Shown here one piece after another: positions 19,301 through 64,000 of a stretch of DNA of 64,000 bases (its first letter is position 1; the number at the start of each line of letters is the position of its first letter). The DNA is from Selaginella tamariscina (lineage: Eukaryota; Streptophyta; Lycopodiopsida; Selaginellales; Selaginellaceae). The stretch covers positions 930,805-994,804 of the forward strand of contig PUQB01000098.1 in assembly GCA_003024785.1 (NCBI GenBank), read 5' to 3'. A model generated the notes under the pieces. It was not told the DNA's origin and made no database searches. It was given only the letters and a program-made list of their open reading frames with translations. Both the position numbers and the translations under genes were made by a program.

Positions 19301-19311
19301 GCACCTCCTCC

Positions 19312-23015: not shown

Positions 23016-23588
23016 TCTCACGACCCGATACAGATACGGGATTCCGGATACAGGATATGGGTTGCAGGACTTTCCTAGGATTCCGGATACAGGATATGGG
23101 TTGCAGGACTTTCCTACAGATATTCCTACCAGGATTCCGGACACAGATACGGTTGCAGGATATGCCACAGGATATGCCTAGAGGATAAGGGACATGTGGA
23201 CTCATCTTAGCCTCTGCATGCAGTCACTTTTAGCATCATGTCTAGATTAGCTCTTGGAGTTGTGAGCATAAAAGCTCCGACCTAATTGTTGTACAATCAG
23301 TTACTATCAACACCAGTCTTACTACGATCAATCTTGTCTTGTTTTGTTTCCTGTCTTGCTCCTGTCTCGCTCTTGTTTCCTGTCCTGCTCCTGGATCCTG
23401 TCCTGTTCTGGATCCTGTCCTGCCTGTCTTGTTCCCGGATCCTGTCCTTTTCTGTCTTATCCTGTCCTGTCTGCTCCTGGATCCATCCTGTTCTGTTCCT
23501 AGTTCCGTCCTGCTCTTGGTCCTGTTCCTGAGTCAAGCCTTTGTTCTTGGAATCCTGCTCTTCCTGGTTCCTGGATCGTGGCTTGACA
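23016..23588 (+). mobile_element. 5' LTR of chromovirus D (573 bp)
   Basis: It starts TCTCACGACCCGATAC (expected TGTCAC) and ends GTGGCTTGACA. It contains a tandem copy of the GGATTCCGGATACAGG block and a long pyrimidine-rich minisatellite built from CCTGGATCCTGTCCTG-like units. TATA-like GCATAAAAGC lies at 23267. It differs in length from the 3' LTR by repeat gains and losses. Confidence 0.85.
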
Positions 23589-23682
23589 GTTTGATAGTAA
23601 CTGCTTTCATAGCTCTCCATTTTCCAGCTACTTTTTTCCTTGATTCTTTTCCTTCGTTTTCCTCCTTTTTCTTTCATAGATC

Positions 23683-24660
23683 ATGGCTGATTTTGAGCAC
23701 TTTCAACGCGAGCACCAAATGTTGCTTCATGAGCTGGCCACTTTGCGCCAAGTGGTCACCGATCTGCAAGGTTCCACCAATGCGGCACATGCAGCTGCTG
23801 ATGCATCCTCCAAGGCTGCTGCGCAGGCTCTCTCCCAGGCATCGGTGGTTCCCTCTTCATCGAACTTTTCTTCGGAGCCGAAGGTTAGCATGCCAGAGAA
23901 GTTCAGTGGCAATCGTGCCGATTTCCAAGGTTTCCTGAATCAGATCCGGCTCTTGATCCGTATGCAACCACGGCGCTACTCGACTGATGCTCAAAAGGTG
24001 GGTCTTTTGGCATCCTTACTAAGTGGATCTCCACGGGCTTGGGTTGCCCCTTGCTGGAGCGTGACGACCCATTGATGGAAGACTTTGAAGGTTTCGTGGC
24101 TGCCTTTGAAGCCTTTTGGAGATCCTGATAAGTACCGTTCTGCATGCACGAAGTTACGGAAGCTCACTCAAGGATCCCGACCAGCTTCCGTCTATGCATC
24201 CGAATTTCAGCAACTTTGCACGAACATTCCATGGGACGAGACTGCATTGATCGAACACTTCCGTTTTGGGTTGAGGGACGATGTGAAGGACCTTCTCCTT
24301 ACGTTACCGGATGCCCAAACATTAGCGGAGATCATGCAACAAGCTGTTCGTTGCGACAACCGTTTGTTCGAGCGTCGTCAGGAAAGATCCCGTCAGCAGT
24401 TCCTGCAAACCAATCCTGCAGCTGTGGTACATGTTCCTGCACCACCTTCTGGAGTAGTTCCTATGGAGGTTGAGAAATCCAAGCGTGGCTCTCTTTCCGC
24501 TGCTGAGAAGCAACGTCGCGCAGTGAGAACCTGTGCTTGTATTGTGGTGGAGCAGGACACAAGGTGGCAGATTGTCCTATTAAAGCCAGGAACTTCAAGA
24601 CGCGTGAAGTTGAAGCTGAAGTTCAGTCGGAAAACTCCAATGTCCACTTCGTCTAGGAGC
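23683..24660 (+). pseudogene. gag of chromovirus D
   Basis: It starts at ATG 23683 (MADFEHFQREHQMLLHEL). A retrotransposon gag core follows (MPEKFSGNRADFQGFLNQI, then DPDKYRSACTKLRKL). A CCHC zinc knuckle, CLYCGGAGHKVADC, lies at 24534-24575 and binds nucleic acid in the capsid. Frame breaks occur near 24050, 24120 and 24525. The protein packages element RNA in virus-like particles. Confidence 0.85.
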
Positions 24661-24729
24661 CGCGAAGTTGGACGTAGGTGCAGGCTCCATTGGTGCTGCT
24701 CATACCATTCCATCACTCAAGTTTCCTGT

Positions 24730-25070
24730 ACACATTCATCTTAATAATCGAGAGCTCAAGGAGTTTGCCCTGTTAGACACTGGTGCAAATGCATGCTTCA
24801 TGGATGACATTTTGCAACTCAACATGGCATTTCGGTGGTGAAGTTGAAGCGTGCAGTTCCTGTAGAGGTGGCCGATGGGCGTCTGATTGCTTCTGGTGCA
24901 GTTACCCATGCTACCGAACCTCTCTCTTGCAGTCATGGCACATTCAACTGTTCAATTTCCTTCAACTTGATCAAGACTCGGTCGACTCCCATCATTTTGG
25001 GCATGCCATGGTTCGTTGTTGCAAATCCGCAGATCGACTGGAGGTCTAGGACGCTCACGTTTTCCTCTCC
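24730..25070 (+). pseudogene. Aspartic protease of chromovirus D
   Basis: The active site DTGAN lies at 24776-24790, followed by ACFMDD. After a frameshift near 24815 the domain continues (VKLKRAVPVEVADGRLIAS, ILGMPWFVVANPQIDW). It would cleave the gag-pol polyprotein. The frameshift makes this copy inactive as written. Confidence 0.85.
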
Positions 25071-25700
25071 GACAGCTAGGATCAATCCTGTACCTTCCTT
25101 GTGCAGGATACATCCTTAGTATCTGAGGCAGTACAAGCTACAGGATTGACCGTGCCTGTTCCTGTACCAGTGTTGAAGACTCCTCCTCGACAGGATTCAC
25201 CTCATGTCAGTTCCTCAGCACATCCGCAGGCTCTCTCCTCCTGTAAGTTTGCGTTCCTGTACAGGGTTCTTCCAATCCTGTATCAGTGTCGAAGGTTCCT
25301 CCTCAACAGGATCCACCTCCTGTTGATTTCAGCACATTCGCAGGCTTTCCTCACTCCTCGCAACCACGGACTCCTGTACAGGATTCTTCCAATCCTGTAC
25401 ACTTCAACATCACCAGGTTTTCCAATCCTGCCTCTTTCTGTTACCTGCTTCTGTTCCACCCCCAAGATCCTTCCTCTTTTTCAGTCACAGCTCCCTCCTT
25501 CTCCTCTCCGAGTTCTTACCACTACCATGCATGAACTCGCCACTGATCCTGCTCCTTCCACCTTTTTGCCTTTCAAGTAACTCCTACGTCCTCTTCTACC
25601 TTTCCTGTATCCGACTCTCCTGTTTTTCAATCTCCTTCCTACTCCTTCTCCTTCTCCTCCTTCTTCTCTACCATCCAAGTACACGACTTTAAGGACGTTT
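25071..25700 (+). pseudogene. Protease-RT linker of chromovirus D
   Basis: Low-complexity Ser/Pro-rich coding stretch between protease and RT, with frame changes. No conserved domain seen. Confidence 0.55.
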
Positions 25701-27000
25701 TTGACAAGCACAAGGCTGCAGTTCTTCCTGTTCACAGGTCCTACGACTGTCCTATTGATCTTGCGAAGGAAAGACTCCACCGTACCGATTTATGCATTGT
25801 CACCCACAGAGTTGGAGGTTCTTCGTCAGTACATCGAGGACAACTTGGCATCCGGCTTCATTCGTCACTCAAAGTCCCCTGCAGGAGCGCCTATCTTCTT
25901 TGTCAAGAAGAAGGATGGGAGTTTACGTTTGGTTGTGGACTACAGGGGTTTGAATCAAGTCACCATTCGGAATCGGTACCCGTTGCCATTGATCCCGGAA
26001 CTTCTCGATCGGCTGCGAGGAGCAAAGGTGTTCACGAAGATCGACTTACGAGGGGCCTACAACCTTGTACGGATTCGTCCAGGCGATGAGTGGAAGACTG
26101 CCTTTCGTACAAGGTATGGACACTTTGAGTACACGGTAATGCCTTTCGGCCTTACCAATGCCCCAGCCGTGTTCCAACACATGGTGAACGACATCTTTCG
26201 TGACTTCTTGGACCAGTTTGTGGTGATCTACCTCGACGACATTTTGATTTTCTCCAAGGACCAGGCGGCACATGACAAGCATGTACGATTAGTTCTACAG
26301 CGGCTTCGCGAGCATGGCCTGTATGCGAAGTTGGAGAAGTGTTTTTTCGATAGGGATTCTGTGGAGTTCTTGGGCTACATCGTCTCTCCTGCTGGCGTTT
26401 CCATGGACATGCACAAGGTGAAGACCATCGTGGAGTGGGAGAGGCCCAAGTCTGTACGAGATGTACAATGTTTCCTTGGCTTTGCAAACTTCTACAGGCG
26501 GTTCATACAGGACTTCTCCAAGCGTGTACTTCCACTCACGGAACTCACCAAGCGCACAGGGTTTTCTCTTGGTCCGACAAGGCGGAACATGCATTCACAA
26601 CACTCAAGGACGCCTTCACGACAGCTCCGATTTTAGCACATCCTGACCCTTCTCGTCCTTTTTCGTTGAAGCAGATGCCTCGGATTTTGCAGTAGGATCC
26701 GTCCTATCACAAGTTGGAGAAGACAAGTTGCTTCATCCTGTAGCTTTTCACTCTCGTAAGTTCCTTCGGCGGAGATCAATTACGAGATTCATGACAAGGA
26801 ACTCAAGGCCATTGTGGATTCGTTCGAGGAGTGGCGGCATTTCCTGGAAGGTGCTGCACATCCTGTACAAGTTCTTACGGATCACAAGAACCTGGAGTAT
26901 TTCAAACGGCTCGAGTTCTCAGTCGGACAGGCTAGGTGGGCGGTTCCTATCACGTTTTGATTCGTCATCGTCTACAGGCCCGGTTTTCGGAATGGCAAGG
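25701..27000 (+). pseudogene. Reverse transcriptase and RNase H of chromovirus D
   Basis: One open frame to 26636 carries the whole [62 protein letters not shown], and the catalytic YLDD at 26229-26240. A frameshift follows near 26560. RNase H continues in other frames to about 27000. This is the best preserved polymerase in the window. Confidence 0.9.
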
Positions 27001-28611
27001 CGGACGCATTGTCTAGGCGCTCTTACCTTGCACCAAGCCCGGGCGATCCTGCATTTGACTGTCAAAGGCAAGTGTTGTTGGGTCCTGATCGATTCCGGCT
27101 TGCGGCACTGCAGGTTCATCAGGCTCCAGCAAATTCAACACTCCTACAGGACGTCCGTTCGCAGTTGGCTACAGACGACTTGGCAAAGAATGTGTTCTCA
27201 CACATTCATCCTGACGTTGCAAGTTCCTCTTCCTCCAGTTCCCGTCCAGACTACAACCTGTTCACCATACAGGATGGACTCCTGTACCGGGAAGGTCTCC
27301 TGTACGTTCCTGTTGGTATTTCCAGGACTCGTGTGGTACAGGATTGTCATGATACCCCGGCTACAGGACATTTTGGTGTGGCCAAGACAGTGGAGTTGGT
27401 GACTCGCAACTATTGGTGGCCTGGGTTGCGAGGTTTTGTGGAGAGGTTTGTACGGAGTTGTGACACTTGTAACAGGTCGAAGATGCCTCATCATGCACCC
27501 TCTGGTCTTCTTCGTCCTCTTCCTGTTCCTTCTGCTCCTTGGAGATCCATTTCTATGGATTTCCTCACAGATCTTCCTCCTCTCGTGGATTCGATGCAGT
27601 TCTTGTGGTGGTTGACCGTTTCACCAAGCAGGCTCATTTCCTACCCTGCAACAAGACAGCTACAGGTCAGACAACTGCCGAGTTGGTGATCCTGAGGTGT
27701 TCCGACATCATGGTCTTCCTGAGAGCATTGTTTCCGATCGAGGTCCACAATTCATGTCCAAGTTTTGGCGAGAGCTTCTTCGGAGTCTACAGGTTAAAGC
27801 GGATCTTTCTTCAGGATATCACCCACAAACCGATGGGCAGTCCGAACGCACAATTCAGACCTTAACAGTATCTTCGTTGCTTCATCAGTTACCAGCAGGA
27901 CAACTGGTTGGACCTTCTTCCAATGGCGGAGTTTGCCTACAACAACTCCGTTCACGCATCTACAGGACAGACACCTTTCTTTGCTCTTACAGGCCACCAT
28001 CCACGTTTTGACTTTGCTCCTCCCGCTTCTCCTTCTTCCGCTCCTGCAGTACAGGATCGTCTTCAGCATCTTCGGCAGGTACAGGATGATCTCCAGGTTC
28101 ATCTTCAGCAGGCACAGGAACGATACAAGCATCATGCTGATGCTCACCGTCAGCCGACCTGCATACAATTGGTGATCTCGTGTGGCTTCTTCGTCGACAC
28201 ATTCGCACCAACAGGCCTTCTTCTAAGTTGGATTTTCAACGATTGGGCCCTTACAGGATCGTGGCGGAGGTAAATCCTGTAGCTTTCCGACTCGAGTTAC
28301 CATCCACGGTGAAACTTCATCCTGTGTTTCACACCTCCTTCGTCTCCTTCCTCGGTCGTGTTTCTTCTCCTCCCCCTCCTGTGGTCATTGACACTGAACC
28401 TGAGTACGAAGTTGCAGCCATCCTTGATTCTCGTCTTCATCGCCGCCAACTCCAATACTTGGTGGATTGGAAAGGTTATTGCCTACTGATCGCACTTGGG
28501 AACCTGCATCCAACTTACTCCATGCTTCTTCCAAGGTTGCTGCCTTCCATCGGCATTATCCTGCTAAACCAGGTCCCAAGACTCGTGGAACTCGTCTTAG
28601 GGAGGAGGTGC
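27001..28611 (+). pseudogene. Integrase and chromodomain of chromovirus D
   Basis: The zinc finger spans about 27340-27480 (H and H in HDTPATGHFGV, then CDTCNRSKMP). The core follows with frameshifts near 27580, 27680 and 27880 ([32 protein letters not shown]). The C-terminal chromodomain is near 28400-28530 (YEVAAILDSRLHRRQLQYL, VDWKGY, then DRTWEPASNLL in another frame). Chromodomains direct integration to modified histones. The polypurine tract GGGAGGAGGTGC ends at 28611. Confidence 0.88.
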
Positions 28612-29247
28612 TGTCACACCCGATACAATACAGGATTCCGGATACAGGATTCCGGATACAGGATATGGGTTGCAGGACTTTCCTACAGATATTCCTACCA
28701 GGATCCGGACACATGATACGGTTGGAGGATATGCCACAGGATATGCCTAGAGGATAAGGGACATGTGGACTCATCTTAGCCTCTGCATGCATGCAATCAC
28801 TTTGCATGCATGCAACCACTTTTAGCACTCATGCCTAGATTAGCTCTTGGAGTTGTGAGCATAAAAGCTCCGACCTAATTGTTGTACAATCAGTTACTAT
28901 CAACACCAGTCTTACTACGATCAATCTCGTCTTGTCTTGTTCTTGTCTTGTTTCCTGTCTTGCTCCTGTCTCGCTCTTGTTTCCTGTCTGCTTCTGGATC
29001 CTGTCCTGTTCTTGGATCCTGTCCTGCTCCTGTCTTGTTCCCGGATCCTGTCCTATTTCTGTCTTTTCCTGGATCCTGTCCTATTTCTGTCTTATTCCTG
29101 GATCTTGTCTTGCTCCCGATCCTATCTTGCTTCTGGATCCGTCCTGTTCCTGTTCCTAGTTGTCCTGCTCTCGGTCCTATTCCTGAGTCAAGCCTTCCTG
29201 TTCTTGGAATCCTGCTCTCTTCTTGGTTTCTGGATCGTGGCTTGACA
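28612..29247 (+). mobile_element. 3' LTR of chromovirus D (636 bp)
   Basis: It starts TGTCACACCCGATAC and ends GTGGCTTGACA, so its termini are TGTCA/TGACA. Compared with the 5' LTR it has an extra TGCATGCATGCAA duplication near 28790 and extra CCTGTCCTATTTCTGTC units near 29050. TATA-like GCATAAAAGC lies at 28858. Confidence 0.9.
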
Positions 29248-29252
29248 GCATT

Positions 29253-30360
29253 TGCACCAGTTTCTAACTGGGCAAACTCCTTGAGCTCTCGATTATTGAG
29301 GCGAATGTACAGGAAACTTGAGTGATGGAATGGTATGAGCAACACCAATGAAGTATGCACTTACGTCCAACTTCGCGGCTCCTAGATGAAGTGGACATTG
29401 AAGTTTTCCAATTGAACTTCAGCTTCAACTTCACGCATCTTGAACTTCCTGGCTTTAATTGGATATTCTACCACCTTGTGTCCTACTTCATCACAATATA
29501 AAGCATAAGTTCTTACCACGACAACATTGCTTCTCAGCAGCTGAAAGTGGGCCATGCTTGTATTTGTCAACCTCCATAGGAACTACTCCAAAAGGTGTCA
29601 TAGTAACATGTGCTATGGCTATAGGATTGGCTTGCAGGAACTGTTGACAAGATTTTTCCTAATGACGCTTGAACAAATAGTTGTCGCATCGAACGGCCTA
29701 TTACATGATCTCTGCTAAGGTTTGAGCATCTAGTAATGTAAGGAGAAGGTCCTTCACATCATCCCTCAACCCAAAACGGAAGTGTTCGATCAATGCAGTC
29801 TCGTCCTATGGAATGTTCGTGCAAAGTTGTTGAAATTCGGATGCATATATGGAAATTGGTCGGAATCCTTGTGTGAGCTTATGTAACTTCGTACATGCAG
29901 AACATACTTATTGGGATCTCTAAAGCAGGCTTCAAAGGCAGCCACGAATCCTTCAAAGTCTTTCATCAATGGTTTGTCACGCTCCAGCAAAGGGGCAACC
30001 CAAGCCCGTGGAGATCCAACTAGTAAGGATGCCAAAAGGCCAATCTTTTTGCATCAGTCAAGTAGCAGTGTGGTTGCATGCGGATCAAAAGCCTGATCTG
30101 ATTCAGAAAACCTTGAAAATCAGCACGATTGCCACTGAACTTCTCTGGCATGCTGACCTTTGGCTCTAAAGAAGAGTTCGATGGAGAGGAAACCACGGAT
30201 GCTTGAGAGAGAGCCTACGCATCAGCCTTGGAGGATGCATCAACAGCTGCATGTGCCGCATTTGTGGAACCTTGCAGATCTGTGACCACTTGGCACAAAG
30301 TGGCCAGCTCATGAAGCAACATTTGGTGCTCGTGTTGAAATTGCTCAAAATCTGTTATGA
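29253..30360 (-). pseudogene. gag and protease start of chromovirus C
   Basis: gag starts near 30355. The core (MPEKFSGN...) and MASLLVGSPRAWVAPLLER follow near 30035. The zinc knuckle near 29470 reads YALYCDEVGHKVVEY, so two of its three cysteines are gone. The protease active site near 29270 reads ETGAN instead of DTGAN. The element is clearly dead. Confidence 0.8.
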
Positions 30361-30454
30361 TTCGTAAAAGAAAAAAGGAAAACAAGAGGGAAAAATTAAG
30401 GAGGAAAAGAAGTAACTAAAAATCAAGGAGTTATGAAAGCAGTTACTATCAAAC

Positions 30455-30843
30455 TATCAGCCATCATCCAAGAGTAAGGAGCTTGACTCAAGAGCAGAAC
30501 AAAAACTAAGAACAAGATGAGAACATGAGGCTAGGAGCAAGACAAGAACACGACAAGAACATGAGGCAAGAAGCAAGACAAGAACATGACAAGAATGATC
30601 GTACAATGACTGGTGTTGATAGTAACTAATTGTACAACAATTAGGTCGGAGCTTTTATACTCACAACTTCAAGAGCTAAACTAGGCCTGAGCTAATCTAA
30701 TCATGAGCTAAAAATAGTATCCTTATCATGTAGGTATATCCTGTAAGCATATCCTATAGGTATATCCTATAGGCATATCCTGTAGGTATATCCTGTAAGC
30801 ATATCATGTATCCCGTATCCTGTATCTTGTATCGGGTCGTGCA
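30455..30843 (-). mobile_element. 5' LTR of chromovirus C (389 bp)
   Basis: On the - strand it starts TGCACGACCCGATAC at 30843 and ends TGATA at 30455, followed by the GTTTGATAGTAACTGC leader shared with element D. It is rich in TAGGTATATCCTG-type short repeats. Confidence 0.8.
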
Positions 30844-42647: not shown

Positions 42648-43640
42648 GGATTTATATAAAGAGAGAGGATATTATGGGTTTAGGGTTTGAAATTCCTTTC
42701 TACAGTCACTCACTAGAGAGATGAGTAAACTCTTAGTAATTCTATGGTTGTGAAAGTCCTCTATTATTGTTGAATCATAAGAACTTCTTAAATCCGAAAT
42801 TTTAACCTAAATATAATCTTGTATGTAGATATGATTTTAGATTGGACACATATATACATACATACATATTTTTTATTTGTAGAGCCCACATTTGAATAGA
42901 TATTTTCCTGTTGAATTCTCTATGTAAAATCCTTTATTTTCCGCTACAATTTCCCCTTTTTTCTAATTTTTTACTTGTCTTAATGCTCATATATATATAT
43001 ATATATATCTTAGTATGAGCTCACTCACGGTTGTAAAACCTAAATAGTAAGCTCTTTGTTAGATTTAAGATACATGGTGAGCATTAGGAAGAAGAAGTAT
43101 GCAGCAGCAATCAAAGCGTGAAGAGCTAGAAGCACACTAAATCAAAAAACCTGGTAAGTGGGTATAGTCACATTTGTGTATATACGTAATTGAGAATTAT
43201 TTTATACTTATTAATCTATCTCTTTATAAGGTTTGAGCATTATTTAATAATAACTCTAGTGGTAAGTTTAATTGTAGTACACAACAAATCTATTTTTTTC
43301 TTTAATATATTCTTACTACTCTAATTAATAGCTATTATTTGTTACTTTACAAAGTTTAAATTCTAGATCCTCAATTTGGCCAGTTGTACCTTCACATAAG
43401 AGGAGGAAAGGCCGGGTGTAAACCCAAGGAGTGTCATTCTGTGGTTGCCAATTATTGGGAGCACATGTGGAAATCAAGGTTTACCAGATGGAACATACCC
43501 TTGCTCATGTCACAAGATTAGGAACACAAGATTGATGGCACATACAACACCAAGAGAGAGAAATCTTTGTGGTACTACAAAGATTGCAAAACAGTTCCTG
43601 CTATTGACAAATGAAGGACTTCAATCTTTTATATGTGTAG
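42648..43640 (+). repeat. Repeat A copy 3, with promoter and split small gene
   Basis: TTATATAAAGAG at 42651 is a plausible TATA box. ATG at 43076 begins MVSIRKKKYAAAIKA, with a stop after KA in this copy. A donor GTAAGT follows at 43154. The second exon after 43350 retains the PSHK and CGCQLLGAHVEI words and ends in a frame reading WYYKDCKT. It matches copy 1 without the MITE, so this site shows the empty target. Gene family unknown. Confidence 0.5.
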
Positions 43641-50090: not shown

Positions 50091-50850
50091 ATCCTAAACA
50101 TTTTGCTTAAGATCAAAGTACACTTATGTAGCAACAATATAATCATCACTAAAGATTTAATAATAAGTCATGTTATTGTCTCTGTCTTACCTCAATTGTA
50201 GTTAAAGATTCAATTTCTATAAAATGAGACATTGTCGTTTTTATTTGCAAATGAGAAATTGCATTGTAAGAACAATGGTTTGTGCAAGTATTGTGCTAAT
50301 TTAAATCATTTTGTTCAAAAATCCCTAAGCAAGCCATAGCATTAAATTAATCATGTACATTTTAAATGCACGTTGTAACTAAAGTGGGCATGATACGTGA
50401 AAATGGGAATATAAAATAAATTACTAATTAATACTTAAGTTTTAATTATTAATTAATCATTTAATTAATATGTAATTAAGCCTTAAATATTAATTAATTA
50501 ATTAATTAATCCTTCAATAACCTTACTTAGTAAGGAATATTCCTAAAATATCTTAGAATATTCATATTATTCTAAAAATAGTTTACAATAATGAAGAAAT
50601 ACTATCAAACATAATTACAAATGAAATCATTTTCTTATCAACATGTTAATTTTTTATAAATACTTTCTTCCTAACCATAAGAGAAATCTCCTCATTTTGT
50701 CTAAATCATCACTCTCCGGATTAATCAAATCATTTTGGTCAATATCTTGATGTTGTTGCCACCACCTAACACTCTCACGAATGCAATTGGGAGTTGCCAT
50801 CCTTGTTAATACATAAGATGTAATAAGACCAGGTCTGCATAAAGGCTCAT
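50091..50850. other. AT-rich intergenic stretch 3' of the HAD gene
   Basis: No gene seen; contains (TTAA)n-type runs at 50440-50510. It should include the 3' UTR of the - strand HAD gene. Confidence 0.5.
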
Positions 50851-51828
50851 CTAAAAATGACGTTCCTTAAGAATAATATTATAAAGCGCCCGGTTGCTAT
50901 CCTTCATTTTATAAAATTCAAAATCACGAGAAAGAAAAGCTTCAGGAAATGTATGATACGGTGGATACTGCTCACAAAAATTTTCGAGATTCTTCTTTCT
51001 GAGGCACGTATCCAAGTAGTTCACTAGCTCATCCATGATATCGGTATCAGAATATGGATCGAAAGTGATTGGATGAATACAAGCAATGTTTTGGTTGAGC
51101 ATAGCCTTCTGAGGAGAGTCGTCTACTACTAAGATATGTGCATTCTTCATTATCCTTAAGCGACTGATCTCCCCATGAGTCCCAATTATTCTTTCATTCT
51201 TGAAGAAGTATGGCTTGCTTTCCTTTCTTATATTGTGAAATTCGAGAGGTTTATAACACATTCGCTGGTCAAAAATCCAATCTTTACGAATCACCTCTTC
51301 TGCAACACTACAATGTTTCTTAAGCAAATTCAACAGCGGTGTTAAGTTATGAATCTGCATGCATGACCAAATCCCCACAAGCGCACCCATCTCCTTAAGC
51401 TTTTGAAAGAGACGATCCAACCCTGGACGAAAAATAATATCATATCGAAATTTACCATGACAAGGAATGAAATCTCCTTGTTTGATTTCTTTTTTCCTAT
51501 CCTCGGGCCTTTGTCGATGAAGCAGAACACCATTGACATCCAACAACACAATATGGCCATGAGTAACATGAGATAGCGTTGCCTCTTGAATACTTTGCAA
51601 ATCACTTGTTTGCTCCCTTTCACATTTATCCGTTGCCACTATCTCGTTGCCTATCCCTTCATCATTTAATTGTACATCATCCTTACAAGATTCAGATATT
51701 GCATGCGCTGAAGAAATTGATTTCGGAACTGAAGCCAATAAAAATGATGATGAAAAAACTGAAGTGGCCCCCATGGTAACGATGTTTTGAGCTGCATTAT
51801 TATCCATTTCCTGCATGAACTCTGTCAT
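50851..51828 (-). CDS. FCP1-type HAD phosphatase-like protein
   Basis: One intact frame of 325 residues from ATG at 51828; the frame is open slightly further upstream, but with only GTG. The first 90 residues are Ser/Asp-rich and unordered. Then comes the HAD fold: motif I VLLDVNGVLL (nucleophile Asp about residue 97), IFRPGLDRLFQKL, motif II GIWSC (Ser about 155), conserved RKDWIF, and motif IV VVDDSPQKA (about 236). The second Asp of the usual DxDx(T/V) is Asn here, as in many plant FCP1-like proteins, so phosphatase activity is uncertain. An exon-like stretch ending near 51845-51915 may add a different N-terminus. It lies about 270 bp downstream of the ParB-like gene, on the same strand. 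Confidence 0.85.
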   Translation of the reverse strand: MTEFMQEMDNNAAQNIVTMGATSVFSSSFLLASVPKSISSAHAISESCKDDVQLNDEGIGNEIVATDKCEREQTSDLQSIQEATLSHVTHGHIVLLDVNGVLLHRQRPEDRKKEIKQGDFIPCHGKFRYDIIFRPGLDRLFQKLKEMGALVGIWSCMQIHNLTPLLNLLKKHCSVAEEVIRKDWIFDQRMCYKPLEFHNIRKESKPYFFKNERIIGTHGEISRLRIMKNAHILVVDDSPQKAMLNQNIACIHPITFDPYSDTDIMDELVNYLDTCLRKKNLENFCEQYPPYHTFPEAFLSRDFEFYKMKDSNRALYNIILKERHF

Positions 51829-52096
51829 TCTGACATGTGGCACAAGAAATTGTCGCCAAACCCCTCTCTTACCTCATGCCAATGCTGAAAATCCATGTTC
51901 TCAATTGTTTCATTACATCTGCAAAATGATAATTAGCTGACCTTAAAATTATCAAGGTATATTATTTACCTTGTTAATGTGTGACCCATGTTTGAACTAA
52001 AAGCTTCATTAATCCTTGAGAATTTATTTTCTGTACAAATATAAAGAAATATACAAAAATGCCTTATGTTACACTCATTTACAACTATTCATCACT

Positions 52097-55000
52097 CTAA
52101 CAATTCATTAACAATTCTTCTTCGCTATTACCTTCTGAGTGAGGCGAAGAAGGTCTAAGCCGCTTGTGAGATGGTTCAAGATCTTCTGCATCTTCTATTG
52201 ATGTTTCCATGGGTAATGGAGTGTGCGAATGTTCTGTACTCCTCGAGATAACTTCCGGTCTAATATCTGATTGAAGTTCGTCTCAGACTCCGACATTGAA
52301 CCAGATTCGTCTTCAGAGCTATCGCACTTATCTGGAGGGAACTTTCTCAAATACTCCTTTATGGATTCGTTGGGGTACTCAGTTGAGAACCTATCTATCC
52401 ACTTGTTCAGGTCCTCAACCATGGTCTTATCCTTTTCAACGGCAAAACACATGTATGCCGAAGGTAACACTCCTTCAAGACGGACCCCCTAGTGCAGTAG
52501 TCAAAAACCCACGCATCACTGTGAGGACCCCTGATCAAGTTGACGATGCTCCGTGCCGCTTGACTTGTGATGTTTGGATAACGTACATTGCCGAATACGT
52601 CACTCTCACCTATCGGTGTATCGGATGGAGGTTCAGGGCCGTTGGAGTGCAAACAGATGCCTGGCCAGTCATTTGGAAGTTTGAAACTGTTTGGCGCATT
52701 CCTAACAACCAAGTGAACAACCGAATCAATGCACTTCGGATCAGCATCATTCATATAAAATCCTGTCCAACGATGTTTATTCCTCTTGGCAAAGGAGAAG
52801 GCAAAGGTATCGGTGACATGAGCAAGAATCAAGAAATAAATACCTGAAAACGTAGATATCAGTCAAGAGTGCAAGTGAATTCAATAATAAATACCTTCTT
52901 TGTACATACTTGCACGGCTAAGTTTCTCCACCAAATCCTCTAGTGTCCTGTCTGTCGAAGGATTTTTTGACACCCGCCGATCCATCACGAACAATTGAAA
53001 CGGTTTCCTACAAGCAGTGATGGTACCCCATAAAGTCTCCGAATCCAACAACAAACATCTGTAGGGCTTGTCGTGATTCGTAGCATCCTCCTTTATAAGG
53101 TTCAACTCGGTTCTCCGCTGCTGAAGGACTGCCATAAGAGAAGGCGTCATCCAATGTTCTCCTTTTTGGCGTTGGCGTGCAATAGATTCTTGCCCAGATC
53201 TTCCGATTGATTCACCCATTCGACAAGCATATCATCATTTGTCACATGCAAATATTTGCTGACCTCTTCGTATGTTGAAGCCGAAATCCAACCCAGTTTG
53301 TGGCAGTGTATTCCCAACCACTCCTTGAAGTGCCTGACCGTCTTCAACTCCATTGCCTTGAGATGAAAAGGAGAGGTGGGGCTGCTGTTGTTAATCTGTA
53401 ATTTGCCATCAATCACCAAATCAGCCAAGACTTCCATCTCCTCCATCGTTGTTCCATTTAAAGGCTTCAACCATGTGAGCTTGAAATCGTTGTCTACATC
53501 CTTTATAGATTGAACAGACTTAGCCTTCGGCGTCTTACTGGGTTTCTTTGCAGACTTCTCTGAGGGCTCCACTTCACTTGTCTGCTTCTTCTTCAGTGTT
53601 CCTTTTGCAAAGGATTCCATAATCCCCAACCATTTCGCAAAGATCCTATCCTCGGGACAAGAAATCAACATCATCAAAAAGGATGTTTCCTTCCCGCCCA
53701 CCTGGGCAAAATCAACTGCTACAATTTCTTCAACTCTCTGAGAAAAAGACAGATTAATATACCGGCGAGATAAATCCCGCCCAAACAATTGCTTACCCGG
53801 TAGTCCGCAGATTGTGTATTCCCTGCGGTAGCTCTTTGTGGTCGCTGAAGAGATTCCCACACGGCTCGCGTGTGTTTGAACTTCTCCCATATTTTGCTGT
53901 TGTAGTGGTTGGTGTCTGCAGCGTCCCATTCCGCCGATAACTTATGGTACTGCTCGATTGTGAGATTCGGCTTCGCTAAAAAGCCGATCTTTTCGTCAGC
54001 TTCTCACGGGTATGCTCGGAAAGTTTTGTTGCCATCGTTCCTTTGTTGTGTTCGTCGAGAAGTCGTTGGGCTGCCGTTATTGTGTGCTGGCCACTAATGA
54101 TGTAGTACTTAACTGATTTTCTATTCTCCGTCTGAACCTTCCTCATTTGTTCCGGTGTTGTGATCCACACTTTGTCAGCGCCTTTGTTTTCGTAGTATGC
54201 GCACAAAACAGCATTATGTGGAACGGTGTAAGAATTGTCGTCCTTCATCTTCTCCATGAGCTCAGCTACACGTTCCTGATTCAGTGGCCTGTAATTGAAG
54301 TTTGGGTTGACGCTGCAATACTTAACCCTACACTGTAAATCCTATCATCCAACATCATTTCCTTGTGGCTTATTGCAGCATGGGACGCCACAGGTGCAGC
54401 TGACAAAACGACTAATGATTTTCTTCTACGATCCGAATCAACATGTGTGATCCCCGATTGATGCTGTTCTAATGTTCTCGGCACACTCTTCCAGCTCCCG
54501 AAATTTGCTAAGCAAATTGAACGTGATCTGTAAAGAACCTGAGACCAAGCCACCCTCTCAATCTCCTTTATGATGTCGCTGTGTTCTTCTTCAATGTGAA
54601 GAGGGACGATTGCTCCACTTGTGGATTTCTGTATTGTGAAGCAATATCTCCTGAGAATACAACCTACTCGATGAGTCTGAAGATCTTCAAGTAGACATCC
54701 AGTTGGATCCCCTTCATAGATGGGCTTTCGTTGAGTTGAAGAAGAACTCCACGGTCAACATCATTAGTGAACACGTGAACGTCATTATCCACAAGTCGAC
54801 AAAACCACCCGAAATTAATGTTGTAACTGGCGACCTCTGGATCCGAGAACGTGACATTGGATGGAACGAGGCATATGTGTCGAGCATCGTTCATCTGGGT
54901 TCACAGCATGCTTTCGGATGCTTGACTAGCACACCCACTTTCCATTGTTTTGCTTGTCCATGCGATGTGACAGAGGTTAGTTTGACAGCAACCATGGTTG

Positions 55001-55197
55001 TTTCCAATGCGCTTCCCGTTTAGTTTGAAATATGGCCAAGTTGATTCCAGAATCCCCCCTGCCCATCTCTTCTCCTGCTCTCGTCTTTAATGTCACCTCA
55101 ATTCCACATCTGAATACAAAAATGATTAGTTCAAGCACATATCCGAGTATAACAGATTTTATTTTAATTCTTACCCAGAATTTGACGACGACTCCAT
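52097..55197 (-). CDS. ParB-N-like and methyltransferase-like fusion protein
   Basis: Four exons on the - strand: 55197-55175, 55109-53797, 53737-52895 and 52843-52097. GT-AG introns of 65, 59 and 51 bp join in phase. The product is about 950 residues. Residues about 280-370 look like a ParB-N domain (YRPLNQERVAELMEKM, then YYIISGQHTITAAQRLL at 54107-54057). A Lys-rich linker follows, then a domain ordered like the gene at 1-950: LLLDSETLWG where a DPPY motif would sit, and AWVFDYCTRGS...CFAVEKD as a degraded SAM motif I. The C-terminus is acidic with a basic HKRLRP. Frame breaks near 55013, 54899, 54711, 54327, 53991, 53165, 52473 and 52284 each need one base more. ParB-N folds bind DNA or nucleotides in bacteria; the role here is unknown. 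It might instead be a transposon-borne gene. Confidence 0.6.
53764..53781. promoter_or_regulatory. Palindrome near-copy in intron 2 of the ParB-like gene
   Basis: GGCGAGATAAATCCCGCC matches the array consensus GGCGGGATTAATCCCGCC at 16 of 18 positions. It is the only copy I see inside a gene. Function is inferred only from similarity. Confidence 0.55.
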
Positions 55198-55535
55198 ACT
55201 AATGACTCGATCTCCTTGTTTAATAAATCGTCCTTCTGCAAAATAATACACTATGAATACAAATCATATAAAAACGCACACACACTTGTATAAACCCGAA
55301 TATACAAAAATAATACACAGAGAGAAGTAGACGAATTAACTGTCCAAAGCTCACTTTGTGCTAGTGCAAAAGAAAGATAACATTTCGTTTTAGAACCACC
55401 ACAAATGTGAGCTCTGGACAGTTTTACATAGATTCCTAGCTTTTACTCGAAATATTATGATAAGATGATAAAAGTAAATAAAATGAGATATGCAACTTAT
55501 ATATACTAATACACATATATATTCACATGGAAGGT
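55198..55535. other. Upstream region of the ParB-like gene, with an inverted repeat
   Basis: No gene. At 55341-55423 lies an imperfect inverted repeat (AACTGTCCAAAGCTCACTTTGTG against CACAAATGTGAGCTCTGGACAG), possibly a small MITE or a stem-loop. No clear TATA box. Confidence 0.45.
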
Positions 55536-56700
55536 GCGGCGGGATTAATCTCGCCACCCCTTCAATGCCTCCTGAAAGAGTGGGCGGGATTAATCTCGCC
55601 ACCTTTCTGGAGGCCTTGAACGGGAGTGCGGAATTAATCTTGCCACCCTTCTCGGTCTCAGAGAGAACTGGGCAGGATTTATTTCTCACACCCCTTCAGT
55701 GACTCCAGAAAGGAGGCGGGATTAATCTCGCCCACCATGTAAGGGATGGTTAAATGAATTTCCCCACCCTTCCCTTCTCTCCATTGGTATGTTGTAAACC
55801 TTCTACGTCTCAGACAGAAACGTTTGGGATTGGTCCGACTCACCAATGGAGAAAAAAGGAAGGGTGGCGGGATTCATTCCTCCAACAGGCATTGAAGGCT
55901 CGGCGGGATTAATCCCGCCGCCCAGGGCCTTCACTCGGTCCCTATGCGGCGGGATTAATCCCGCCGGACGCCAATTCCCTGCGCGAATCGGGCGGGATTA
56001 ATCCCGCCGCCTAGGCCCTTCAGGCAGGCCAATGGCGGCGGGATTAATCCCGCCCGATTCCGCGCAGGGCAGCGGATTAATCCCCGCCCAGGCCCTTCAC
56101 TGGGCCTAGGCGGCGGGATTAATCCCGAACGCCAATGCCCTGCGCGGAATCGCGGGATTAATCCCGCCGCCTAGGCCCTTCAGGCAGGCCAATGGCGGCG
56201 GGATAAATCCCGCCGATTCCGCGCAGGGCATGCTACGCGGCGGGATTAATCCCGCCGCCCAGGCCCTTCACTCGGGCCTTAGTCGGCGGGATTAATCCCG
56301 CCAAAGCCAATGCCCTGTGCGAAATCCGGCGGGATTAATCCCGCCGCCTAGGCCCTTCAGGCAGGCCAATGGCGGCGGGATAAATCCCGCCCGATTCCGC
56401 GCAGGGCATGCGTACGCGGCAGGATTATCCCGCGCGCAGGGCATGCGTACGCGGCGGGATTAATCCCGCCGCCCAGGCCCTTCAGGGCCTTAGCGGCGGG
56501 ATTAATCCCGCCGGACGCCATGCCCTGTGCGGAATCCGGCAGGATTAATCCCGCCGCCTAGGCCCTTCAGGCAGGCCAATGGCGCGGGGATAAATCCCGC
56601 CCAATTCCGCGCATGGCATGCATAGGTGGAGGGATTAATCCTGCCACCCAGGCCCTTCACTCGGGCCTGAAATGGCGACGGGATTAATCCCGCCGCTACA
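55536..56700. repeat. Palindrome array 1 (about 25 units)
   Basis: About 25 copies of the 18-bp perfect palindrome GGCGGGATTAATCCCGCC or close variants, about 45 bp apart. In 55900-56700 four different spacers alternate: one holds GGCCCTTCACTCGGGCC, one GCCAATGCCCTGCGCGGAAT, one GGCCCTTCAGGCAGGCCAAT, and one the reverse complement of the second (ATTCCGCGCAGGGCAT). This gives a higher-order period of roughly 180 bp. The array is far more GC-rich than its surroundings and starts about 340 bp upstream of the ParB-like gene start. Confidence 0.9.
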
Positions 56701-57600
56701 CACCACCACACACACAGATTATATATATATATATGTGTGTGTAGGAGAGTGCGTGTGTGTGCCAGAGATAGTTAAATCAGATAAAATTATACAGATATGT
56801 ATATACGCATGTGTGTGCGAGAAATAGATAAATAAATAAAATTATACAGATACTGGTTTAACATAATATATGTATGTATACATAGTATATATATATATGT
56901 GTGTGTATATGTATATCGTGTGTATGCGTGTGTGAAACAAATAAAATCATACAGATAAACAAACACACACATACACATATATATACAGGAGTGTGCGTGT
57001 GTGTGCGAGAGATACAATTAACAAATCAAAAATTATAACAGATACACACACACACACATATATATAGATAAATAATAGAATATATATTATATATATATTA
57101 TATATATATTATATATATATCTGTGTGTGTGTGTGTATGTATACGAGTGTGCGTGTGTGCGAGAGATAGAGATCTATAGAGAAGAGAGAGAGAGAAGGAG
57201 ATATATATATATATATATATTATCTGTGTGTGTATATGTATACGAGTGTGCGTGTGTGTGCAAGAGATAGAGATCTATAGAGAAGAGAGAGAGAGAGGAT
57301 ATATATATATATATATCTGTGTGTATATATGTATACGAGTGTGCGTGTGTGTGCAAGAGATAGAGATCTATAGAGAAGAGAGAGAGAGAGGATATATATA
57401 TATATATATATCTGTGTGTATATATGTATACGAGTGTGCGTGTGTGTGCGAGAGATAGAGATTTAAATTATATTATTAAGATACACACACATATAAATAT
57501 ATATGTGAATAAAAATAAATAAATATCACAAATAACGCAGAGGAGTGTGCGTGTGAGAGAGAGAGATATCTCACCTGTGTGAGAGAGAGAAGGAGATTTC
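56701..57600. repeat. TA/GT and GA microsatellite block of the left arm
   Basis: Repeats of TATATA, GTGTGTGCGTGTGTG and GAGAGAGAG. A unit of about 125 bp (GAGATAGAGATCTATAGAGAAGAG ... ATACGAGTGTGCG) occurs three times between 57170 and 57450. Open frames rich in Tyr, Ile and Cys here are not genes. The block is mirrored at 63300-64000. Confidence 0.8.
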
Positions 57601-60035
57601 ACTGCCGCCGCCTTACAAACCCTAGGAATATACTTAAACCCTAAAAGGAATAGAATATATATTAACCTAATCGAATATTCCTTTTAAGAATATACTTAAA
57701 CCCTAAAAAGAATAAACTATAGATTCGCCCTAAATGAATATTCTTTCATTATTATCAGCGTGTGCGTGTGCGTGGGTTTATCACATACACCCCAAGAATA
57801 AATATCATGCAAGGGTTTAACACGTGTGTGTACATGAGAGTGTTAAAGTTTCACATGCAGCATATATATACACACATAGTATTATACACATAGACATACA
57901 TATATATTAGTATATATTAATATTAGAGAGACAGAGTACAGGATCATGTATGGTGTGTATGTATGAGAGAAGAGTGACAATACATATTATGGATCATGCA
58001 TGGTGTGTATGTATGAGAGAAAAGTGAGAATGTTAACAAATTAAATTCATACACATTGGATATATTAGTACACACATATACATACACACATGTATACACA
58101 CAGACATACATACATATTACATGTGTAAATTCAATGTAGGGTTTAGGGTTTAGGGTTAGGATGGATCATGCATGGTGTTTATGTATGAGAGGAGTGAGTG
58201 TTATACACAGATATACATTATACATATTACATAATATTGTAACATCATACATATTATGGATCATGCATGGTGTGTATGTATGAGAGAAGAGACAGGTTAC
58301 ATATTATGGATCATGATCATGCATGGTGTGTATGTATGAGAAGGGATTATGCATGGTGACACTGTGTATGTATGAGAGAAGATATAGTGTTAACAAATGG
58401 AAATCGTACACATTGCATATATTATATTAGTACACATATATACATACACACGTGTATACACAGACATACATATATATTACATGTGTAAATTCAATGTGTT
58501 ACATACACACACACTTAGTACATATAGATCATACATGCGTTGAACATGATATTTTTTCAATAAAGAAGCAACATATAATTTCTCAAGTTTGGTTTAGGGC
58601 AATGTGCATGTGTGTGTATATGTGTCTCTGTAAGTGCTTCTAATGCGTGTGCACATGTATATATAAATTTATGATTGTGTTTATATATAATATGTGCAAA
58701 ACAAACATCGAATAATTAAGAAAATATTAATATACACACTATGAACATATTTTAAATTATACATAATAATATATGATTTTATTTAATATAGCCATATATA
58801 GTTTTAATAATATATATTAATTTAAAATTGATAATAAGGTTTAACATAGAATATTCTTGAAATAATAACAAATTAATTGAGAAAATCCCATTAATATATA
58901 CAAATGTAGAATAATTACTGAGATAATTAAGAGACTAATTTAAATTATGATAATCATGTTTAATACTGGAATATTCTTTGAATATTAAGAAATAACAAAG
59001 AATATCCCATTAATAGTAGGAAATGTAAATTAATTACTCGAGTAATTAAGAAATAATAATAATAAACAGACTATGAATATATTTTAAATGATACATAATA
59101 ATATATCAATTTATTTATTGTATTAGTGTATATATATATATATAATATAAACTTAATAATATATACTTGAATATTAAGAATGTAGAATAATTACAAAAAT
59201 TTCGTAATATTAAACAGCTTGAAGCACTTGAATGACATTAAATGCAATTTTAAAACACTCATTGGAATTGGAGAGTAATATATGTTAGACTGTTGGTTAT
59301 TTGTTTAACTCATCTTAAATTTTCTTTTCTGTTATTTCAAAAATTTTAAATTTTTGACATAGTATTATCAGTCTGACATGTAAATTTAAAAATACATTTA
59401 ATTTCCCACTCAAATTCAGATCTGGTTTTTCCGGCAAGGGTTTTCTTTTCACTCTTCAGATTTTCTTTTTTCTTCTTAGTGATCAGCTTAGGAGCGACAT
59501 TAAATTGGGTGCGCTATTGTTTATAGGAAAGCACGGCGCCTTCAGTGCTGTTTACAAGTAAGTATTATAAACAAATTTAGATATATTTATAAAGATTCAC
59601 TCTCTTACATTTCTCTTAAATTTTAGAATTTAGGGATTTAGGAATGCATTAGGATTACAATATATTCTTGTTAAGGATTTATCCCGTTTAAATATACTTT
59701 TAACTTAGTATCTCGGTTAGCCGGGCGGCGGGATTAATCCGGCCATTTTTTTTTTGCCTCTTTGAAGAGGTGGCGGGATTAATCCGCCACCATCTTTTTC
59801 ATAGCTTGACAGAATTAGTTCGGGCAATGCTTCTCCGCTCTTAAAAGAGCAGCGAGATTAATCCCGCCGATAAACTCTCTCAACTGATAATGATTTACTT
59901 AAATTTATTTAGAAAGAGTTGTCGCGGGATTAATCTCGCCAACCATTTTAGGAGGCAGAGAAGGGGTGGCGGGATTAATCTTGCCACTACTTCCCTGTTT
60001 TAAATATTTGTGGGCAGAATTCATCCCGAATCTCT
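56911..60035 (+). repeat. Left arm of a giant inverted repeat
   Basis: The arm mirrors 60830-64000 about a centre near 60430. Landmarks on both sides: telomere-like repeats (58137 and 62704), a GGCGCCTTCAGTGCTGTTTA block (59537, inverse at 61331), GCCGCCGCCTTACAAACCCTAG (57604, inverse near 63236), and TATCGTGTGTATGCGTGTG (56913, inverse at the window end). By eye the arms differ by several percent, mainly substitutions and small indels. No gene is recognised inside. Confidence 0.88.
58137..58160. repeat. Interstitial telomere-like repeats, left arm
   Basis: Three tandem TTTAGGG/TTAGGG units, mirrored at 62704-62730. The TTTAGGG type is the usual plant telomere unit. Confidence 0.7.
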
Positions 60036-60565
60036 TTGAATCATAGTTTCGGAGAGAGTTGTAGGCGGGATTACTCCGCCGCTTATTCCCCGTCGTCAGA
60101 GTTGTGGGCGGGATTAATCTCGCTGTTATTCTCCGTCGTCAGTGTTGTGGGCGAGATTAATCCCGCCCCCTCTTCCTCGTTGGAGGAATTGCGGCGGGAT
60201 TAATCCGCCGACTCTCACAGACGAGGAAGATCTGGCGGCGAGATTACCCGCCGGTACTTCCTAGTCGGAGGGAGCCCGCAGCGGGATTAATCCCGCCGCT
60301 ACTTCCTCGTCGGAGGGAGCCCGTAGCGGGATTAATCCGCCGCTACTTCCTCGTCGGAGGGAGCCTGCAGCGGGATTAATCCGCCGCTTCTCTCCGATGA
60401 GGAAGTATCGGCGGCGGGAATTAATCCCGCCGCTCTCTCCGACGGGGTAGAGTAGGTGGCGGGATTAATCCCGCCGACTTCTCCGATGGGGTAGAGTCGG
60501 CGGCGGGATTAATCCCGCCGACTCACTCTGAAGGGGTAGAGTCTGCGGCGGGATTAATCCCGCTC
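59725..60565. repeat. Palindrome array 2 (about 18 units)
   Basis: Copies of GGCGGGATTAATCCCGCC and variants at intervals of about 40-45 bp in 60060-60565 and more widely in 59725-60030. Several central units have short inverted spacers built on TCCTCGTCGGAGGGAGCC. The array occupies the centre of the giant inverted repeat. The part before 60035 belongs to the left arm. Confidence 0.88.
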
Positions 60566-60829
60566 AGTTATTTTAATAAAGCATGAGATATTATTTTTAT
60601 ATATAATTATGTATTATTGACATGCATATTATTAAGCAACTGCAGTTATGATTTCTTATAAATATTGCATAAACAGATATATAAAAACTATTTATGTGTA
60701 GGACAATATGTATAATACTGGAGATAAAGTATGTCTTCTTCGGAACAACGAAATAGTTGCACTGGACTGTGGAAGTTCGAGATGAATGCATATGTCACAA
60801 ATATTGCCCAAGGATCTTGTGTGTACGTA
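60566..60829. other. Unique AT-rich centre of the inverted repeat
   Basis: No mirrored counterpart on the left side. It holds only a short open frame on the - strand (60597-60791) without recognisable motifs. Confidence 0.5.
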
Positions 60830-63800
60830 TGGGTGAACACCATTTTCAATGTTGGGAATGGAATTTAGGATGAATCCTGTCCATAATATTTAAAATAGGA
60901 AAGTGATGGAAGATTAATCCACCTTCTCTGCCTCCTAAAAATGATTGGCGAGATTAATCCCATAGATAACTCTTTTCAATAAATTCAAGTAACTCTTTAT
61001 CAGTTTGAGAGAGTTATTGGCGGGATTAATCCCGTCGCTCTTTTTAAGAGGTGGAGAAGCATTGCCCGAACTAATTATGTCATAGTTTATCAAAAGATGG
61101 TGGCGGAATTAATCCGCACCTCTTCAAAGAGGCAAAAAAAATGGCCGGATTAATCCCGCCACCTGGCTAACCAAGAATATTAAGTTAAAAGTATATTTAA
61201 ACGGGATAAATCCTAACAGAATATATTTAATTCTAATGCATTCCTAAATCCCTAAATTCTAAAATTTAAGAGAAAATGTAAGAGAGTGAATCTTTATAAA
61301 TATATTTAAATTTGTTTATAATAGTAAACAGCACTAAAGGCGCCGTGCTTTCCTATAAACATAGCGCACCCAATTTAATGTCGCTCTTGAGCTGATACTA
61401 AGAAGAAAAAAGAAAATCTGAAGATGAAAAATAAAAAAATAAAGAAACCTTGCCGGAGAAAGAACCAGATCTGAATTTGAGTGGGAAATTAAATACATTT
61501 TCAAATTTACATGTCAGACCGACAATACTTATATCAGAAATTCGAAATTTTTGAAATAACAGAAAAGAAAATTTAAGATGAGTTGAAACAAATAACCGAC
61601 AGTCTGACATATATATCTCCAATTCCAATGAGTGTTTTAAAATTGTATTTAATGTCATTCAAGTGCTTCAAACTGTTTAAATATTACGAAATTTTTGTAA
61701 TTATTCTACATTCTTAATATTCAAGTATATTATTATTAAGTTTATATTATATATATACATAATAAATAAATAAATTGATATATTATTATGTATCATTTAA
61801 AATATATTCATAGTCTGTTTATTATTATTATTTCTTAATTACTCGAGTAATTAATTTACATTTCCTACTATTAATGGATATTTTGTTATTTTCTTAATAT
61901 TCAAAGAATATTTCAATATTAAACATGATTATCATAATTAAATTAGTCTTATTCTTAATTATCGTAATTATTCTACATTTGTATATATTAATGGGATTTT
62001 TTCAATTTTTGTTATTATTTCAAGAATATTCTAGTGTTAAACCTTATTATCAATATTAAATTAATATTATTATTAAAACTATATATGGCTATATATTAGA
62101 TAAATCATATTTATTATGTATAATTTAAAATATGTTCATAGTGTGTATATTATATTATTTTCTTAATTATTCGATGTTTGTTTTGCACATATATATAAAC
62201 ACAATCATAAATTTATATACACGTGCACACGCATTAGAAGCACTTACAGAGACATATGCACACACATGCACATTGCCCTAAACAAACTTGAGAAATTATA
62301 TGTTGCTTCTTTATTGAAAACATCATGTTCAACGCATGTATATCTATATGTACTCAGTGTGTGTGTTGTAACATATTGAATTTACACATGTATATATATG
62401 TATGTCTGTATGTATACACGTGTGTATGTATATATGTGTACTAATATATATGCAATGTGTAAATTTTCATTTGTTAACACTATATCTCTTCTCTCATACA
62501 TACACAGTGTCACCATGCATAATCCCTTCTCTTACATACACACCATGCATGATCATGATCATAATATGTAGCCTGTCTTTTCTTTCATACATACACTATG
62601 CATGATCCATAATATATACTGATGTTACAATATTATGTAATATGTATAATGTATATCTGTGTATAACACTCACTCCTCTCATACATAAACACATGCATGA
62701 TCCATCCTAACCCTAAACCCTAAACCTACATTGAATTTACACATGTAATAATGTATGTATGTCTGTGTGTATACACGTGTGTATGTATATGTGTGTACTA
62801 ATATATCCAATGTGTATGAATTTAATTTGTTAACACTTTCACTCTTCTCTCATACATACACACCATGCATGATCCATGAAATATATACTGTCTCTCTTCT
62901 CTCATACATAACAACAATATGATCATGTACTCTGTCTTTATAATATTAATATGTACTAATATGTATGTATGTCTATGTATAATACTATTGTGTATATATG
63001 TATGCTGCACGTGAAACTTTAACACTCTCATAGACAACAGTGTTAAACCCTGCATGATATTTATTCTTGGGGTGTATGTGATACCCCAGCACACGCACAC
63101 GCTGATAATATATGAAAGAATATTCGTTTAGGGCGAATCATTAGTTTAATCTTTTTAGGGTTTAAGTATATTCTTAAAAGGAATATTCAATTAGGGTTAA
63201 TATATATTCTATTCTTTTTATGGTTTAAGTATATTCCTAGGGTTTGTAAGGCGGTGGCGGCAGCGGTAGTGAAATCTCCTTCTCTCTCACACAGGTGAGA
63301 TCTCTCTCTCTTCTCACACGCACACTCGTCACAACACACAACACACATATATATATACACACATAGAGATATATATATATCTGTGTGACACACACATATA
63401 TATATTATATATATTATTATATATATATATTATAATTCCTTCTCTCTCTCTCTTCTTTATAGATCTCTATCTCTCAACACAACGCACACTTGTATACATA
63501 TACACACAGATATATAATATATATCTGTGTGACACAGATATATATTATATATATATCTTTGTGTGTGTTTGTGTTTGTGTATCTGTATAATTTATTAATT
63601 TATTAATTTTATCTCTTGCACACGCACGCACACTCCTGTTTATCTGTATGATTTTTTTGTTTCGCACACACGCATACTCACGATATACATACACACACAC
63701 ACACACACATATATTATACCTATATACATATAATATACATACATATTATGTGTACAGTATCTGTATAATTCTATTTATTTATTTATTTTCGCACACACAC

Positions 63801-64000
63801 GCACACTCCTATACATATATATATATATATATATATACACAACATATATATGTGTGTGTGTGTGTATCTGTATAATTTTATTGATTTGTTAATTATATCT
63901 CTCGCACACACACGCACACTCTGTATATATATATGTGTGTGTGTGTGTTTGTTTATCTGTATGATTTTATTTGTTTCACACACGCATACACACGATATAC
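60830..64000 (-). repeat. Right arm of the giant inverted repeat (continues beyond window)
   Basis: Inverse copy of 56911-60035. It includes five degraded palindrome units at 60905-61165, AT-rich sequence, telomere-like repeats at 62704-62730, and the microsatellite block at 63300-64000. Similarity continues to the last base, so the arm does not end here. Confidence 0.88.

Follow-up and report, generated by a model that had tools for sequence, protein, structure and literature searches.

What kind of gene lies behind the spliced reading frame on the minus strand of a Selaginella tamariscina contig, whose product an earlier note read as a ParB-N-like domain fused to a methyltransferase (MTase)-like domain, and does it belong to the plant or to something that moves within the plant? 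The window, by which we mean the whole 64,000-nucleotide stretch analysed (C1370:930805-994804 in the coordinates of the genome search), contains plant-type Ty3 elements recognised by eye, and an inverted pair of Ty3/gypsy-like retrotransposon stretches at 18969-30826 whose main alignments are 84-88% alike. On C525, a contig that enters the comparison below, an ALOG-domain gene (PF04852, E=2.4e-64) is present, a family typical of plants. The features on which the argument draws are collected in Table 1.

Three-frame reading of positions 55300-52050 yielded a gene that opens with an ATG at 55197, is interrupted by three GT-AG introns of 65, 59 and 51 nt, and closes with a stop codon at 52097; taken together, the region's five longest open frames cover 809 codons, whereas 300 Markov simulations averaged 429 and never exceeded 629. 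The coherent exon structure with phase-matched GT-AG introns described in the earlier note was borne out, the identical structure recurring in 19 of the 21 sequences tried (20 copies of 8-10 kb fetched for comparison and the window copy), namely in 18 fetched copies and the window, while no start was found in L021 and no third donor in L022. Both motifs reported there, YRPLNQERV and IISGQHTITAAQRLL, are likewise present in the window gene. Among the 19 spliced copies, three (L015, L019 and L023) are open over 970-978 codons, the fetched copies not being a random sample because they were chosen mainly for long open frames; the reading frames of L015 and L019 are cleanly open, and that of L023 is open solely because three one-base deletions cancel out. 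Relative to intact L015, one-base indels shift the frame of the window copy at 11 places, and it has in addition a net in-frame loss of three bases. Because gap columns outnumber substitutions in several pairs (17 versus 13 for the window and L014, 30 versus 5 for L014 and L011, though only 6 versus 10 for L014 and L025), assembly error would explain these indels as well as degradation of the copy does. Additionally, an imperfect hairpin was noticed by eye at 55339-55422, with arms AACTGTCCAAAGCTCACTTT and AAATGTGAGCTCTGGACAGTT, between array A2 and the gene start; at the gathering threshold, Rfam gave no match anywhere in the window, the hairpin included.

Table 1. Positions, strands and bases of assignment of the features discussed, numbered within the window
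Feature	Position	Strand	Basis or remark
Terminal inverted repeat at the 3' end of transposon copy 1, reading ATGCACGTTGTAACTAAAGTGGGCATG on the plus strand	50366-50392	-	Homology stop among copies and inverted match
Copy 1 of the transposon, cut off ahead of the transposase-like gene	50366-60849	-	Alignment to the complete C525 copy ends at 60849
Phosphatase-like ORF of NIF/FCP1 type within the element (motif LLDVNGVLL)	50851-51828	-	Pfam PF03031, E=3.8e-12
ParB-like/MTase-like accessory gene, window copy frame-broken	52097-55197	-	Splice signals and frames
Exons of the accessory gene	55197-55175, 55109-53797, 53737-52895, 52843-52097	-	Splice signals and frames
MTase-like region (LLLDSETLW, IYFLILAH, VFDYCTRGS ... 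VEKD), intron 3 inside	52195-53198	-	Motif order alone
Palindrome copy within intron 2 (intron 53738-53796)	53764-53781		Palindrome search
ParB-like region, box II position IISGQHTITAA, GxxR arginine replaced by Thr	53979-54341	-	hhalign, natural copy L015 against phage ParB-MTases
Array A2 of GGCGGGATTAATCCCGCC, upstream of the accessory gene	55538-56694		Palindrome search
Array A1 of GGCGGGATTAATCCCGCC	59727-60564		Palindrome search; adjoins the transposase-like gene in the complete C525 copy
Transposon copy 2, inverted, reaching the contig end 5.2 kb past the window	60868-64000	+	Alignments

The gene is far from alone in its genome. When the 100-residue ParB-like stretch was searched against the plant's own 300.7-Mb assembly, all 150 scored places matched with E < 1e-56 and at least 90% identity, and since these places come from 4087 first-look candidates, the copy number is at least 150. 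Substitution divergence is 0.1-0.4% inside subfamily A, with the exception of L024 at about 1.3%, and 4-5% between subfamilies A and B. The transposon that carries the gene is thus a young, high-copy element that has recently been amplified.

Its limits are sharp. In the window (at 50366) and in 18 of 20 fetched loci, homology among the copies breaks off at a single base following ...TTAGTTACAACGTGCAT, with differing flanks beyond, and no sharp 3' homology end was seen in the remaining two fetched loci, L022 and L028. On C525, the other end of the element was located 14.0 kb away as an inverted repeat matching at 25 of 27 bases, and this complete copy is flanked by TTAG on both sides. Together with TTAT/TTAT on C495 and AAGT/AAGT on C542, a 4-bp target duplication accompanies all three copies in which both ends were seen, set against a chance control in which flanks of different copies agreed in 5 of 171 pairs; C794 was left out of this test because its far end is not at the expected place. 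With the opening 494 bases of that end as query, a DNA search that scored 40 of its 1940 candidates gave 41 matches; all but one, which was partial, ran full-length from base 1 at 98-100% identity. On the strand opposite the accessory gene, the C525 copy holds ORF pieces carrying the motif GHTHEDIDAFFS, one matching DUF7869 (PF25273) at E=4.6e-27 and a second at E=1.2e-5, just under the curated cut-off; this gene, whose position and strand are read from that one complete copy, would be the transposase. Inverted ends, target duplications and a presumed transposase ORF are the attributes of a cut-and-paste DNA transposon, and the gene in question is a passenger (accessory) gene of such an element, a recently multiplied plant DNA transposon of 14 kb. 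The element also encodes a NIF-type ORF, downstream of the accessory gene and before the element end both in the window and on C525, with D-x-N where DxDx(T/V) would presumably be usual for this phosphatase type; its dN/dS of 0.16-0.75 (four pairs) comes from too few changes to judge selection.

These observations bear directly on the origin proposed in the earlier note, a horizontally acquired and domesticated single host gene. Introns, a constrained protein and the plant character of the contigs would accord with that origin, but it is contradicted by mobile ends, by target duplications and by at least 150 genome copies at 90% identity or more, which rule out a single-copy domesticated gene and leave the proposal with next to no probability.

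The window itself holds two truncated copies of the element head to head, and the transposase end is absent from both at their junction. Together they account for the long inverted repeat that lies right of the gene, with a main alignment 85% alike when indels are counted. That junction, at 60849-60868 (and in L029), lies 8.3 kb from the contig end and may be a real rearrangement or an assembly effect. One molecule read twice was considered and set aside, copy 2 being nearer to L027 and L009 (0.11-0.12%) than to copy 1 (0.37%), and it keeps some plausibility because the contig ends 5.2 kb past the window. Short open pieces at 60690-60870, next to array A1 (e.g., MYNTGDKVCLLRNNEIVALDCGSSR), resemble plant transposase-associated proteins by eye.

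The accessory protein evolved under purifying selection. Across six pairs, five between subfamilies and one within A, which share lineages and are therefore not independent and whose figures come without confidence limits, dN/dS was 0.25-0.26 for the whole protein, 0.28-0.37 for residues 1-280, 0.06-0.15 for the ParB-like residues 280-400, 0.09-0.30 for residues 400-640 and 0.26-0.35 for the MTase-like residues 640-910. The C-terminal tail of 68 residues is apparently unconstrained, with no synonymous and 2-8 nonsynonymous changes over the six pairs (5-8 between subfamilies).

What this constrained protein resembles was assessed against a profile of phage ParB-MTases, for which 80 loci were fetched, 75 gave an ORF and 34 were kept on the grounds of length and a DPPY-type motif. 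When the ParB-like part was aligned to these 34 proteins by hhalign, three of 100 shuffles scored equally high; the weak alignment lands on the box II position and continues into the downstream segment. The available part of PMC12704722 gives GxxR as the box II motif of ParB-CTPases, and the corresponding residues are GQHT in all 20 fetched copies and in the window. The ParB-N-like fold that the earlier note placed at about residues 280-370 is upheld insofar as box II aligns and fails at the GxxR arginine, which is Thr; the likeness to ParB is weak.

Permuted N6_N4 DNA methyltransferases carry a DPPY/F/W motif IV and an FxGxG motif I. In the accessory protein, LLLDSETLW occupies the motif IV region of 19 of the 20 fetched copies (L022 did not yield the stretch) and DYCTRGS stands at the motif I position of 18 (L021 and L022 did not yield it), the window agreeing in both; a DPPY-type motif IV was seen in none of the fetched copies where the stretch was found. 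Aligned by hhalign to the 34 phage proteins, the MTase-like part did no better than shuffles (30 of 100 as high), and the whole protein scored -1.3 bits against their HMM, a value equalled by 142 of 500 shuffles. With no profile match and with motifs IV and I absent, the protein falls outside PF01555. Furthermore, no Pfam or NCBIfam family matched the intact protein at its cut-off, the best sub-threshold Pfam matches, PH_BUD3_C (E=0.0068) and DUF4612 (E=0.011), being chance-like and neither of the domains concerned; PHROGs gave nothing below E=0.03 for two frame-joined pieces of the gene; a search that requires shared five-residue words found no homologue among 5.8 billion proteins; the sequences of solved structures offered nothing beyond one match at E=1.6; viral contigs yielded nothing; and tblastn against phages produced a lone match at E=10. 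By these profile searches and shuffle controls, the ParB assignment is weakly supported and the MTase assignment is not, and the C-terminal permuted N4/N6 methyltransferase order proposed in the earlier note found no statistical support. The protein is nevertheless retained by selection, though the residues expected for catalysis are absent.

The closest counterpart in gene plan is Sola1-1_Ec32 of Ectocarpus, a 21.5-kb element which, in the available part of its description (PMC12477816), encodes a 1104-residue ParB-like plus N4/N6 MTase protein opposite the transposase; the same part points to relatives in green and red algae (Iyer 2011; Petroll 2025) and proposes that such proteins bind and methylate, or mark, their own transposon. 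As far as this portion of the literature describes them, ParB-MTase transposon accessory proteins are known from algae, brown and, by citation, green and red, and a keyword literature search, with most subscription papers outside its scope, recognised no land-plant case. The large Selaginella transposon likewise encodes a single product of roughly 1000 residues (978) opposite its presumed transposase. It differs from what that source describes in its green plant host, its length of 14 kb, the degenerate catalytic and NTP motifs of its protein, and its NIF phosphatase ORF, palindrome arrays and intronic palindrome, and the two are likened by gene plan, not by sequence. For the assignment to this class, context is stronger than sequence because the Ectocarpus element shows an equal arrangement: position and strand opposite the transposase agree, whereas profile support is weak for ParB and absent for MTase. 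The ParB/MTase reading thus plausibly points, by analogy, to a transposon accessory family with a matching gene plan. Conversely, the protein could be an unrelated second transposon ORF whose ParB and MTase motifs are chance look-alikes, as the missing family matches and the shuffle scores for both parts and the whole protein would allow; the shared plan with the Ectocarpus accessory gene and the course of the ParB alignment through box II and beyond argue against this, and we regard it as rather improbable.

Further comparisons concern the superfamily and the phage fusions. The 4-bp target duplications (TTAG, TTAT, AAGT) are of the length found in the Sola superfamily, and the inverted ends of about 27 bp compare with the 32-bp inverted repeats that accompany 4-bp duplications in SrosS, the Sola1 of Salpingoeca rosetta (available part of PMC6875170); Sola1 is also listed for Physcomitrella in the part available of PMC9033089. 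The element may on this basis be called Sola-like, a label taken from duplication length, gene plan and analogy and not from a comparison of DUF7869 with any Sola1 transposase. In the accessible portion of PMC12704722, phage proteins of the ParB-CTPase fold are fused to an N6_N4 methyltransferase, the identical domain pair to that claimed for the accessory gene, but GxxR is lost here and the 34-protein phage profile misses the accessory protein. Bacterial systems are the subject of PMC12839542, as far as its accessible text goes.

A possible target for the protein lies within the element. The 18-bp palindrome GGCGGGATTAATCCCGCC has 32 matches in the window at up to two mismatches, all within 53764-61160, compared with 0.00 expected in shuffles. 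The complete C525 copy has two arrays, one by the transposase-like gene and the other by the accessory gene, both located between the two genes. The upstream array occurs in 18 of the 20 fetched loci, L021 starting at the contig start and L010 lacking an array; L010 may be a truncated copy because its homology to the other copies also stops just before the gene. Each of the 20 fetched copies, like the window, has the palindrome core in intron 2. In 343 units taken from 18 copies, information in the core was 1.66 (A) and 1.84 (B) bits per position, versus 0.20 and 0.24 in the surroundings; because units were picked by their ten inner bases, the unbiased part of this evidence is confined to the outermost three core positions at either end (1.0-2.0 bits). 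The commonest spacing is 44-46 bp (123 of 266 spacings under 120 bp).

Altogether, we consider it likely that a Sola-like 14-kb cut-and-paste transposon carries the gene as its accessory gene and that the gene's product, a palindrome-binding and probably non-catalytic protein, falls within the ParB-MTase class. As a member of the algal-type class of transposon accessory proteins, it would bind the element's own iterated GGCGGGATTAATCCCGCC palindromes in the divergent promoter region, as their co-occurrence suggests, and this binding may regulate or shield the element, although the transposase could be the palindrome binder instead. A non-catalytic DNA-binding or scaffold role is more likely than an active methyltransferase because the nucleotide-binding and methyl-transfer motifs are missing. 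Counting against this explanation are the failure of the profiles to identify either domain, an MTase-like region that scores no better than shuffles, the want of a homologue in the word-based protein search, the unconstrained last 68 residues and the array-less L010.

A rival reading follows the proposal made for the algal relatives (PMC12477816, available part): the protein would be an active enzyme that places N4-C or N6-A methyl groups on the arrays of its own element. This would sit well with the purifying selection on the MTase-like part and with the real PF01555 domain of a second family in the same genome. It is at odds with the lack of a DPPY-type motif IV, with DYCTRGS at the motif I position and GQHT at that of GxxR, and with an MTase-likeness not above shuffles, and we judge it unlikely.

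The second family is a multicopy gene on the plus strand, spanning window positions 1-900 and the preceding 2 kb (L112, window -2000 to 0). Its ParB-like stretch carries FICWDGNHRLKVLQKL, with a GxxR-type DGNHR motif, and on the same strand downstream follow FNLVIFDLPNG, PGDLIWDIGSGTGSSML and EKNPELGRIAMNRI, with DIGSGTGSS in the methyltransferase part; strand and spacing suggest that the two parts form one gene. The last part, in the form of the natural ORF L119, passes the curated cut-off of PF01555 (E=5.6e-10), and the frame-joined MTase part beat 100 of 100 shuffles against the phage profile, on which the ParB part was equalled by two of 100 shuffles and aligned outside box II. Pfam gave nothing in the ParB part, and nothing was found for the gene in viral contigs. 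It is repeated at least 150 times, all 150 scored places (of 1106 candidates) matching at 97% identity or more. When this gene was compared with the main gene, 351 of 500 shuffles equalled the local alignment of the MTase parts; in hhalign, 57 of 100 shuffles did so for these parts and 17 of 100 for the ParB-like parts. The motif I stretch of 61 residues gave a global alignment whose score 10 of 2000 shuffles attained, but this is not counted as evidence because the stretch was chosen by eye. A dispersed repeat at 1229-2076, 13322-13704 and 42668-43560 (79-88% alike), one copy of which adjoins the second gene, may mark the end of that gene's element. Quite tentatively, at least two repeated families would carry ParB-like/MTase modules, the second perhaps an active bacterial-type methyltransferase marking plant DNA and the other a non-catalytic iteron-binding regulator.

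With the main gene read as a likely member, the finding extends the algal class of ParB-MTase transposon accessory proteins to a green plant, and it suggests that such a protein can be retained after losing its enzyme activity. Being young and high-copy, with some copies intact, a protein under constraint and the palindrome arrays as an evident candidate target, the Selaginella element makes the published guess of transposon proteins that bind or mark their own element directly testable.
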